Assembly: GCA_002897675.1 (NCBI GenBank)
Contig: BDSU01000036.1
Coordinates: 1-64,000, forward strand
From: a bacterium BMS3Abin02
GTDB lineage: Bacteria > Actinomycetota > Acidimicrobiia > Spongiisociales > UBA4744
Length of the DNA: 64,000 nt
Reading direction: 5' to 3'
The position numbers were made by a program, and so were the translations under genes. The stretch's first letter is position 1. Every line of letters begins with the position of its first letter. Below the pieces are notes generated by a model. That model saw only the letters and a list, made by a program, of their open reading frames with translations. It did no database searches and had not been told where the DNA came from. Shown piece after piece: positions 16,940-45,276 of the stretch.

Positions 16940-17896
16940 ATGGATACGGCGAGCGATCGAGAGGAGATGTTTCTCCAAGCTCCCGTGGCGTGCGCGTTCC
17001 TTCTGCTCTGCGACCAGTTGGGTGTCCCTCTGGACGAGGCGGTCCGGCCGCCGGCGGCGTTGGATCTGGCAGCCGGCGCCATCTCGGACATGTACCCGTG
17101 GGCGGGCGATCACGAACAGCGGAAGGTGGCGGTTGTCGAGCGCGCAGCGCGGCTGCGTCATCTCGTGCCTCGATTGCTGGAGCATCCAGACTCTTCCTGG
17201 TGGTTCGCCTCGTTGGAACGGGATCGGCAGGTCTGGCTGGGAACCAGTCGGGTCCAGATGCAATCCATCGAAGTGCCGTCGGAGGCACCGCCCCCGAGGG
17301 AGTACACCCCCCAGATGCCCCCGGCGTACTTCCTCACCGCCACCCGATATGGAGAGCGGACGGCGTTTCACTCCCTCCTTGCACAGTGGGCGGGAGACTG
17401 GGATCCGGAGCTGCCGCTACCGCAAGCGGACCTGCACGTCGCAGACGATGCGAGGGTTTTCGAGATCCGGTCTCCTCAGGATTGGTACGAACTTGCGGAT
17501 CGATACGCGGTCGTTCCGGTAGAGCGGGGAGAACCGATGGCGGATCGTCAGATCTTCCCACATTGGACGAAAGTCGCAGCGGACTGGGACATCGTTCACC
17601 TGAGTTTCGGCGGATTCCTGCTGGCGACGTTCGTGCCGATCGCCGGCCCCCTGGGGAGTGCAAGACTGTGGACGTGGGAATCCGAATCCGCCCTGTGGCT
17701 CCGACCCTGCTACTCCGATCGGATCGAGCAGGAGCCACTGGTCGGGCGTCCGCGGAGCGCCTTCGAAGGTGTCGGTGTTCGCATCCGCCACCTCCGGACC
17801 CTTGGCGGGGAAGACGCCAGGCTATCCGAGCGTTGGGGAGGGCCGTGTCGGATGAAAGCACGTTCGAGGAGATGGTGGCGGAGCCGGGGTCGCTGA
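16940..17896 (+). CDS. Hypothetical actinobacterial protein, likely damaged C-terminus
   Basis: A 318-residue frame of unknown function. Its C-terminal half (WYELADRYAVVPVE, HWTKVAADWDIVHLSFGGFL, then WTWESESALWLRP) resembles an actinobacterial family of uncharacterised proteins that I know only by pattern. The last about 20 residues are arginine- and tryptophan-rich and unlike the rest. Adding one G to the GGGG at 17835-17838 would instead give a more natural end (SDESTFEEMVAEPG) that runs into the repeated rplQ tail. So the 3' end was probably cut or shifted at the junction. ATG 16940 is two bases after the previous frame. Confidence 0.55.
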   Translation: MDTASDREEMFLQAPVACAFLLLCDQLGVPLDEAVRPPAALDLAAGAISDMYPWAGDHEQRKVAVVERAARLRHLVPRLLEHPDSSWWFASLERDRQVWLGTSRVQMQSIEVPSEAPPPREYTPQMPPAYFLTATRYGERTAFHSLLAQWAGDWDPELPLPQADLHVADDARVFEIRSPQDWYELADRYAVVPVERGEPMADRQIFPHWTKVAADWDIVHLSFGGFLLATFVPIAGPLGSARLWTWESESALWLRPCYSDRIEQEPLVGRPRSAFEGVGVRIRHLRTLGGEDARLSERWGGPCRMKARSRRWWRSRGR

Positions 17897-28449: not shown

Positions 28450-28498
28450 GAACCCAGGGCTCGCAGGTGCGCTGAGCGTGTCCCTGAGCCCTGGGTTC
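28450..28498. repeat. 49-bp palindrome, family A, copy 1
   Basis: The ends GAACCCAGGGCTC and GAGCCCTGGGTTC are a perfect 13-bp inverted repeat. The element is exactly 49 bp, as are its relatives at 28910 and 44089. It lies four bases after the acpS stop and just before the end of a minus-strand gene. Confidence 0.85.
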
Positions 28499-28909: not shown

Positions 28910-28958
28910 GAACCCTGGGCTCGTAGATACTCCAGGGGCACTCCTGAGCCCTGGGTTC
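28910..28958. repeat. 49-bp palindrome, family A, copy 2
   Basis: The arms GAACCCTGGGCTC and GAGCCCTGGGTTC pair with one mismatch. It shares CTCGTAGAT with copy 3. It lies between the divergent starts of the coiled-coil gene and nnrD. Confidence 0.85.
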
Positions 28959-43072: not shown

Positions 43073-44059
43073 TTATCGCCGTTGTTGCGGCCGGTACACC
43101 TCGGGGTTCGCGCATGCCGGCATCGGATCACCCCGCAGGCCGGCGATGAGGTTCTCCGCAGCGAGGTCCGCCATGGCGACCCTCGTTGCCACCGTGGCAG
43201 ATCCGAGGTGCGGAACGACCACGCAGTTGGAGAGCGTCAGGAGAGGATCGTCGGGAGGGATCGGCTCCGGGTCCGTCACGTCGAGTGCGGCCGCTGCGAT
43301 CTCACCGGTACGCAGCGCCCACTCGAGTGCACGGGGGTCCACGATGGCTCCCCGAGCGATGTTGGTCAGCGTGGCTGTCGGCTTCATGCGTCGAAACGCG
43401 TTCATCCCGATCAGATGATGCGTCTCGGTGGCGAGTGGGCAGGCAACCAGGACGTGGTCTGCTTCTTCGAGCAGGGCCTCCAGAGTCCTGTGCTCGACGC
43501 CGAGGGCGGTCTCGGTCTCCAGTCGACGGCTGCGGCTGCTGTACCGAATCTGCATCTCGAATCCCACGGCACGCTTTGCGACGGCGGTGCCGATGCGACC
43601 GAGACCGATGATGCCGAGCGTCGTTGCGTGGACCTGCGCGCCGAGCAGCAGCGTCGGCTCCCACCGTTGCCATCTCCCTGCCTTGACATAGTCGGCCCCC
43701 TCCACGACGCGTCGGGCGGCGGTCAGCAGCAGAGCGAAGGCCATGTCTGCGGTCGCTTCGGTCAGCACGTCGGGTGTGTGACCCACCGCAATGCCCTTCC
43801 GGGTGCACCCCGCCAGGTCGATGTTGTCGGTTCCGACGGCCATCGTGCTGATCGTCCGCAGCCTCGGTGCCGCATCGAGCACCTCGGCGTCGATCGAGTC
43901 GGTGAGCATGCAGAGCAGACCGTCTGCCTCGTGGGTCTCTTCGAGGAGACGATCTCTCGGCATGGCGCGGTCTTCCGGCCATGTCCAGACCGTGCCGGCA
44001 TCCTCGAGTCGCTCCACGGCTGATCCCGGCGGTCTACGGGTGACGACGATTCGGGTCAT
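43073..44059 (-). CDS. D-2-hydroxyacid dehydrogenase (glyoxylate/hydroxypyruvate reductase-like)
   Basis: A 328-residue NAD(P)-dependent enzyme. The nucleotide loop is GLGRIGTAVAK; the catalytic Arg, Glu and His are in NIARGAIVD, DVTDPEPIP and PHLGSAT. It reduces 2-oxoacids such as glyoxylate; with the decarboxylase next to it, an aromatic oxoacid is also possible. TACCAT lies seven bases before the ATG on the minus strand. Confidence 0.9.
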   Translation of the reverse strand: MTRIVVTRRPPGSAVERLEDAGTVWTWPEDRAMPRDRLLEETHEADGLLCMLTDSIDAEVLDAAPRLRTISTMAVGTDNIDLAGCTRKGIAVGHTPDVLTEATADMAFALLLTAARRVVEGADYVKAGRWQRWEPTLLLGAQVHATTLGIIGLGRIGTAVAKRAVGFEMQIRYSSRSRRLETETALGVEHRTLEALLEEADHVLVACPLATETHHLIGMNAFRRMKPTATLTNIARGAIVDPRALEWALRTGEIAAAALDVTDPEPIPPDDPLLTLSNCVVVPHLGSATVATRVAMADLAAENLIAGLRGDPMPACANPEVYRPQQRR

Positions 44060-44088: not shown

Positions 44089-44137
44089 GAACCCAGGGCT
44101 CGTAGATGCGCTCAGCGCACCTGCGAGCCCAGGGTTC
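44089..44137. repeat. 49-bp palindrome, family A, copy 3
   Basis: The arms GAACCCAGGGCTC and GAGCCCAGGGTTC pair with one mismatch, and an inner TGCGCTCAGCGCA is itself palindromic. It lies between the divergent dehydrogenase and trpS promoters. Confidence 0.85.
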
Positions 44138-44183: not shown

Positions 44184-44189
44184 TAGCCT
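44184..44189 (+). promoter_or_regulatory. -10 hexamer TAGCCT of the trpS leader
   Basis: TAGCCT ends seven bases before ATG 44197 of the leader peptide. No Shine-Dalgarno is present, so the leader peptide is probably translated from a leaderless transcript. Confidence 0.5.
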
Positions 44190-44196
44190 CTTGATG

Positions 44197-44235
44197 ATGA
44201 ATGTGCATGTACCCGCGCGGTGGTGGCCCTGCTGA
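44197..44235 (+). CDS. trpS leader peptide with tandem Trp codons
   Basis: A 12-residue open frame reads MNVHVPARWWPC and stop; one codon earlier another ATG (44194) is in frame. Two adjacent UGG codons in so short a peptide, followed 25 bases after the stop by a terminator-like hairpin, are the hallmark of ribosome-mediated attenuation: stalling for lack of charged tRNA-Trp would favour an alternative fold and expression of trpS. Confidence 0.8.
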   Translation: MNVHVPARWWPC

Positions 44236-44260
44236 CCGTCGCGGCGCGTGTTCGATATCT

Positions 44261-44290
44261 CGCCGGCGGCGTCGAGCCCCGGCGTTTCTC
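44261..44290 (+). terminator. Attenuator hairpin before trpS
   Basis: CGCCGG and CCGGCG pair over six bases, then GGC and GCC over three more past one bulged C, with loop GTCGA; TTTCTC follows. An upstream CGGCG (44242-44246) could pair with its first arm as an antiterminator. The trpS ribosome-binding site begins a few bases later. Confidence 0.65.
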
Positions 44291-44301
44291 ATGGAGGAAC
44301 C

Positions 44302-45276
44302 GTGGAACGTAAGACCGTCTTCTCCGGGATCCAGCCCACCGGAGGGATCCATATCGGCAACTATCTGGGGGCGTTGCGCAATTGGGCGCGTCTGCAGGAT
44401 GACTACGACGCGATCTACTGTGTCGTCGATCTGCATGCCATCACGGTCGACTACGACCCGGAGGAATTCCGGCAGATCCGCCTCAACACGGCGAAACTGC
44501 TGATGGCCGTCGGCATCGACCCGGACCGGTCATTGCTCTACTACCAGAGCCAGGTGCGCGAGCACGTCGAACTCGCATGGCTGCTGGCGACGATCACCTC
44601 GCTGGGTCAGCTCAACCGGATGACACAGTTCAAGGAAAAGGCCGACAAGGGCGGCGAGAATCTGGGCCTCTACGCGTATCCGGTGTTGATGGCGAGCGAC
44701 ATTCTGATCCACAAAGCCAACTACGTCCCGGTAGGGGAGGACCAGACGCAGCATCTGGAGGTGACCCGCGACCTCGCACAGCGGTTCAACGCCCGCTTCG
44801 GCGAGGAGTTCCCGATTCCCGAACAGATCACACCGGAGATCGGTGCCAGAGTGATGTCGCTCAAGGATCCGACGGCCAAGATGTCGAAGTCGGCTCCGGA
44901 TGCGAGCTCGAGGATTCACATCGTGGATCCGGCGGACGTGATCCGCAAGAAGTTCAAGACGGCCGTGACCGATTCCGGTCATGAGATCGAGTACGAGACG
45001 CTGAAGAAGCCGGGTATCTCCAACCTGCTCGACATCCTCGCGCTGTTCACCGGCCGGCCGATCGACGATCTCGTCGCTCAGTACCACGACATGCCCTACG
45101 GGTACTTCAAAGAGATCGTCGCCGAGGCGGTGGTCGAAGGGCTCGCCCCCGTCCGAGAAGCGTACGAGTCGCTCGACGATGTCGAAGTGGAGGCCGTCAT
45201 GCGCCGTGGCACCGTGGTTGCCCGCGAGCGGGCCGAGAAAAAGATGGCCTCGGTCCGAGCCAAGATGGGATTGTGA
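44302..45276 (+). CDS. trpS: Tryptophanyl-tRNA synthetase
   Basis: A 324-residue class I synthetase charging tRNA-Trp. The HIGH-like motif is HIGN at residues 17-20 (GGIHIGNYLG) and the KMSKS motif is intact (TAKMSKSAPD). GTG 44302 follows GGAGGAA; the longer in-frame extension would run through the attenuator. This is the main bacterial (TrpS2-like) form by length. Confidence 0.95.
   Translation: MERKTVFSGIQPTGGIHIGNYLGALRNWARLQDDYDAIYCVVDLHAITVDYDPEEFRQIRLNTAKLLMAVGIDPDRSLLYYQSQVREHVELAWLLATITSLGQLNRMTQFKEKADKGGENLGLYAYPVLMASDILIHKANYVPVGEDQTQHLEVTRDLAQRFNARFGEEFPIPEQITPEIGARVMSLKDPTAKMSKSAPDASSRIHIVDPADVIRKKFKTAVTDSGHEIEYETLKKPGISNLLDILALFTGRPIDDLVAQYHDMPYGYFKEIVAEAVVEGLAPVREAYESLDDVEVEAVMRRGTVVARERAEKKMASVRAKMGL

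Follow-up and report, generated by a model that had tools for sequence, protein, structure and literature searches.

A conserved Trp leader peptide, probably leaderless, and a predicted transcription attenuator before trpS in an order of Acidimicrobiia

We attribute the control of trpS in the genome analysed here to a classical ribosome-mediated transcription attenuator whose leader peptide would be translated from a leaderless or near-leaderless mRNA, and we give this reading a probability of about 0.88. The parts of the attenuator are present in the window, i.e. the whole stretch of 64 kb of DNA that was analysed, they are conserved in relatives, and the competing pairings are possible. The source genome comprises 2.5 Mb in 46 contigs, and its named relatives are mainly Acidimicrobiia MAGs. 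A reading made earlier from the letters of the window (the sequence-only reading) had described a -10 hexamer, a frame with two adjacent Trp codons (WW), a bulged hairpin and TTTCTC, followed by the trpS ribosome-binding site, and each of these lies where it had been placed. The features are as follows.

44184-44189, plus strand: -10 hexamer TAGCCT (TAnnnT type), from the sequence; identical in the congener (locus L048)
44194-44235, plus strand: leader frame M(M)NVHVPARWWPC and stop, 12-13 codons, from the sequence; a short W-rich frame is conserved in relatives
44221-44226, plus strand: adjacent Trp control codons UGG UGG, from the sequence; WW or WWW in 17 genomes of the order
44213-44224, plus strand: segment 1, which in the minimum-energy fold pairs with segment 2 (44231-44244) if ribosome-free
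44231-44250, plus strand: segment 2 (stop codon and post-stop CCGUCGCGGCGCG), from folds
44237-44250 with 44259-44271, plus strand: predicted antiterminator pairing 2:3, from folds and the duplex test
44261-44284, plus strand: predicted intrinsic terminator hairpin 3:4, GC-rich with one bulge, -17.6 kcal/mol, from the fold and the pairing in relatives
44285-44290, plus strand: U-tract TTTCTC, interrupted, from the sequence
44293-44297, plus strand: Shine-Dalgarno GGAGG of trpS, from the sequence
44302-45276, plus strand: trpS, tryptophan--tRNA ligase, start GTG 44302, TIGR00233 at 326.8 bits (cut-off 176.75)

A single copy of trpS was found in the source genome. The gene upstream of it is divergent (43073-44059, minus strand), so that the trpS promoter must sit in the intergenic gap. 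The codons from 44194 to 44235 read ATG ATG AAT GTG CAT GTA CCC GCG CGG TGG TGG CCC TGC TGA, the stop codon occupying 44233-44235 and the peptide ending in RWWPC. The frame of 12 codons described earlier, starting at ATG 44197 and containing WW, is present; it is refined here by a second in-frame ATG at 44194 that had gone unmentioned, which makes the frame 12-13 codons long and the leader peptide either MMNVHVPARWWPC or MNVHVPARWWPC. Because the congener has ATG GTG at this place, the first ATG being kept and the second being GTG, either ATG 44194 or ATG 44197 may be the first leader codon. A frame from GTG 44248 was considered as an N-terminal extension of trpS and rejected, as it overlaps the terminator; GTG 44302 has GGAGG and agrees with the starts in relatives. 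The intergenic region also holds, just upstream of the trpS promoter, one copy of a dispersed palindromic element of ~47 bases, AACCCWGGGCTCG ... CGAGCCCWGGGTT (44090-44136, with further copies at 28451-28497 and 28911-28957). Counted over the genome, its arm was found 67 times and the reversed control 0 times, and the element looks like a REP-type repeat.

The distance from TAGCCT to the leader ATG is 4 nt for 44194 and 7 nt for 44197, and in nearly all loci of the order the leader ATG follows a TAnnnT hexamer at a distance of 4-10 nt. A sigma-70 consensus was not scored at the trpS leader in a promoter scan, and the -35 element is therefore weak or absent. In Streptomyces lividans the -10 hexamer is 4-9 nt from the start site, with a mean of 6.3 (PMC8079986). 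From these distances and the hexamer-ATG spacing, the 5' untranslated part of the leader would be ~0-4 nt, and the spacing itself leaves no room for a Shine-Dalgarno sequence. Leaderless initiation without a Shine-Dalgarno sequence, as proposed by the sequence-only reading, is thus backed by the spacing, and the leader peptide is probably translated from a leaderless or near-leaderless mRNA whose transcription start is itself a prediction. In several relatives that have no leader, trpS itself begins 7-10 nt after a TAnnnT hexamer, again without a Shine-Dalgarno sequence, and near-leaderless initiation therefore seems usual in the order.

Absence of the WW frame from relatives had been named beforehand as a result that would refute the proposal, and the proposal survived this test. 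The Trp codons, the promoter-ATG spacing, the terminator and the competing post-stop segment were all found to recur in six families of the order. We detected trpS in 57 of 59 genomes of the order, the source genome included, and read the upstream regions. A short Trp-containing frame stood at the corresponding place in 25 of these 57 genomes, ending 66-99 bases before trpS. Six of the eight families were represented, and the element was absent from the trpS upstream regions read in the other two. WW or WWW occurred in 17 of the 25 leader-bearing genomes, and 8 leaders had single or separated Trp codons only. Leaders of the order include MNVHVPARWWPC, MKSLVHVWWSRR, MCVNCVWWLSGS, MAVTTTRWWHH, MTVTATWWWIG and MIPTGTRWWRSTV, as well as MITTSTQWWWSAV, MQTNRWWWPGER, MHMNDLRWWRHDR, MELVGSWWWRQR, MNTTIMQWWWQRI and MRSDVQVWWLA; the Trp codons are retained though the remaining peptide varies. 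One trpS upstream region (L049, genome G054) has an ATG at the leader position with TAG at once, then in-frame ...RRWCT and a stop; this may be a Trp leader that has decayed or that starts elsewhere.

GC-rich DNA often contains UGGUGG, and a WW frame could have arisen by chance beside an ordinary promoter and terminator. The single sequence says little against this: the fold of the leader is unexceptional (z -0.95), and the window contains one other WW frame, at 17852, without the hexamer. The comparison refutes it. Of 73 trpS upstream regions, 20 contained an ATG..WW..stop frame of 8-17 codons, versus 7 of 2920 dinucleotide shuffles, and when TAnnnT was required 4-10 nt before the ATG the numbers became 19 of 73 versus 0 of 2920; the 73 regions include duplicate records of one genome and the counts are not independent. 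With the Trp codons kept as the peptide changes (compare MKSLVHVWWSRR, MCVNCVWWLSGS, MAVTTTRWWHH and MHMNDLRWWRHDR), chance deserves hardly any credence.

The predicted fold of the leader combines hairpin 3:4 with a 1:2 helix between the Trp-codon region (44213-44224) and the stop codon with the bases after it (44231-44244). For the window sequence the 1:2 duplex amounts to -23.4 kcal/mol and the 2:3 duplex to -14.4 kcal/mol, and folding gives the 2:3 helix if segment 1 is kept from pairing and arm 4 has still to be transcribed. A terminator 3:4 could be recognised in 25 of 26 loci. Over 15 relatives, 94.8% of its pairs were standard versus at most 50.4% when the alignment was slid by 1-3 columns, and two pairs showed changes on both sides. 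Column-level covariation was looked for in the antiterminator 2:3 and none was seen, because segment 2 varies in register and length between genera; a per-sequence duplex test was used in its place. Over 25 loci the 2:3 duplex had a mean of -14.9 kcal/mol versus -11.9 kcal/mol with shuffled segment 2 (p = 3e-7). Pairing of 2:3 within species had no advantage over pairing between species (p = 0.18), the difference failing to reach significance because the terminators are alike across the order. With a ribosome footprint on the first Trp codon, 2:3 formed before arm 4 was made in 23 of 25 loci; with the footprint on the stop codon, 3:4 formed in all 25. In full-length equilibrium folds with the ribosome on Trp, 3:4 prevailed over 2:3 in 24 of 25 loci, and antitermination must therefore be kinetic.

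Two further points count against the attenuator reading: the interruption of the U-tract in the window, and a simple scan that detected neither promoter nor terminator. The interrupted tract and the terminator missed by the scan would also fit a real WW leader at which stalling alters access to the trpS Shine-Dalgarno sequence or Rho loading, without an intrinsic terminator. There are precedents on this side: the S. lividans trpL2 leader is without a U-rich tract (PMC8079986), and leaderless polycysteine leaders are attenuators in mycobacteria (PMC13236596, text and reference 47). In relatives, however, better U-tracts occur (TTTTTC, TTTTCT), with TTTT or TTTTT between the hairpins and the Shine-Dalgarno sequence, which itself lies outside the conserved hairpins. 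We therefore regard such a mode of action as unlikely. Direct sensing of Trp or uncharged tRNA by a T-box, a riboswitch or a protein-binding leader is more improbable still. T-boxes do control synthetases, and unusual ones precede actinobacterial ileS (PMC1262725), but the leader here is ~100 nt long and its conserved core consists of the Trp frame and the terminator. An Rfam 15 scan of the trpS leader, at the gathering threshold and at a relaxed E-value, gave no T-box or other relevant match, while the same scan detected a glmS ribozyme. For the ribozyme the match was RF00234 (25981-26131, 85.7 bits), and no other Rfam match in the window reached the gathering threshold.

For the attenuator reading, which we prefer, the following sequence of events is proposed. 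Transcription would begin at the leader AUG or a few bases from it. When charged tRNA-Trp is plentiful, the ribosome would pass UGG UGG, reach UGA 44233 and cover segment 2; 3:4 would then pair and transcription would end at UUUCUC, ahead of trpS. If charged tRNA-Trp runs low, the ribosome would stall at the Trp codons and cover segment 1, leaving segment 2 free to pair with newly made segment 3 before 4 emerges, so that the terminator would come late and trpS would be transcribed. If the leader is untranslated, 1:2 and 3:4 would form and transcription would stop. We infer the transcription start, the translation of the leader, the efficiency of termination and the response of the trpS leader to Trp.

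The source genome has a parallel attenuator before trpE, a separate element of unrelated sequence. Its leader, MSSRNTRSAQQWWWSSR and a stop, contains WWW and is encoded at locus L076 (G000:C43, reverse complement 776-945). GAGGUGG directly follows the leader stop and is complementary to CCACCUC, the 5' arm of the trpE terminator, with which it would form the antiterminator. WW or WWW leaders before trpE were also found in five further genomes, the congener among them, whose TrpE proteins are closely related, and none was seen in the other 24 trpE loci read; trpE attenuation was thus found only with one TrpE clade. Four genomes (G006, G011, G020 and G047) have the trpE leader and no WW leader at trpS, and most genomes with a trpS leader whose trpE was read have no such leader at trpE. 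The trpS and trpE elements are thus not simply copies of one another.

Outside the order but within the class, no such Trp frame was seen in 40 trpS upstream regions. Among 47 from the rest of the phylum, three genomes of one family (L093, L096 and L101) carried a Trp frame, and one locus of another family (L175) has MTTRTCTQLWWAA and a stop, which closely resembles the published trpL2 leader of S. lividans. The leaders of L093, L096 and L101 end in RRWWPLP, SRWWPL and RRWPL, respectively, and are followed by AGCGGC and an AT-rich stretch with no obvious terminator; control may perhaps operate differently there. Viral contigs were scanned as well and yielded a single distant trpS (46%).

For some Streptomyces, a study of 2005 predicted classical attenuators ahead of trpS and leuS (PMC1262725), and for trpL2-trpS of S. 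lividans a leaderless start was reported from RNA-seq in 2021, other leader peptides of that organism being leaderless too (PMC8079986). The mechanism is therefore not new in kind, and these precedents correct the rarity that the sequence-only reading had implied when it proposed that attenuation serves the synthetase, a proposal which the comparison otherwise supports. What is new is the conservation of the predicted trpS attenuator in an order of Acidimicrobiia; the literature searched contained no paper joining Acidimicrobiia with leader peptides. Tentatively, and with more doubt than confidence, we suggest that in this order trpS attenuation from leaderless leaders may be the usual or the ancestral means by which charged tRNA-Trp is sensed, predating trpE attenuation and not depending on it, so that the synthetase, not the biosynthetic operon, would be the main attenuated Trp gene. 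Attenuation itself is a textbook mechanism; its predicted leaderless leader-peptide form at a tRNA synthetase gene is extended here to a mostly uncultured actinobacterial lineage. The well-conserved comparative set, in which the Trp codons are fixed and the peptide is variable, makes it testable how ribosomes on leaderless mRNA are timed against RNA polymerase for attenuation.

Several known systems resemble the trpS leader in part. The pheST attenuator has Phe codons and a Shine-Dalgarno-led leader, unlike the trpS leader here. In gamma-proteobacteria it likewise represents leader-peptide attenuation of a synthetase gene, a precedent cited in PMC1262725. Mycobacterial polycysteine leader frames are also leaderless, short, regulatory and rich in the sensed amino acid, but they serve Cys genes and are described as acting by translation attenuation without an intrinsic terminator (PMC13236596). 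The attenuators of the Corynebacterium and Streptomyces trp operons (PMC1262725; trpL1 of S. lividans) share the WW or WWW leader, the GC-rich terminator with a U-tract and the mutual exclusion of antiterminator and terminator; their target, however, is the biosynthetic operon, and it is this type that the source genome has before trpE. S. lividans trpL2-trpS (PMC8079986) and S. avermitilis trpS2 (PMC1262725) are likewise actinobacterial and have a short Trp leader before trpS with hairpins after it, and the S. lividans leader is described as leaderless (PMC8079986). That leader, MMTRTCTQLWRAA and a stop, has one Trp and no U-rich tract, whereas the system described here, from a different order and with a different sequence, has WW and, in relatives, clear U-tracts.
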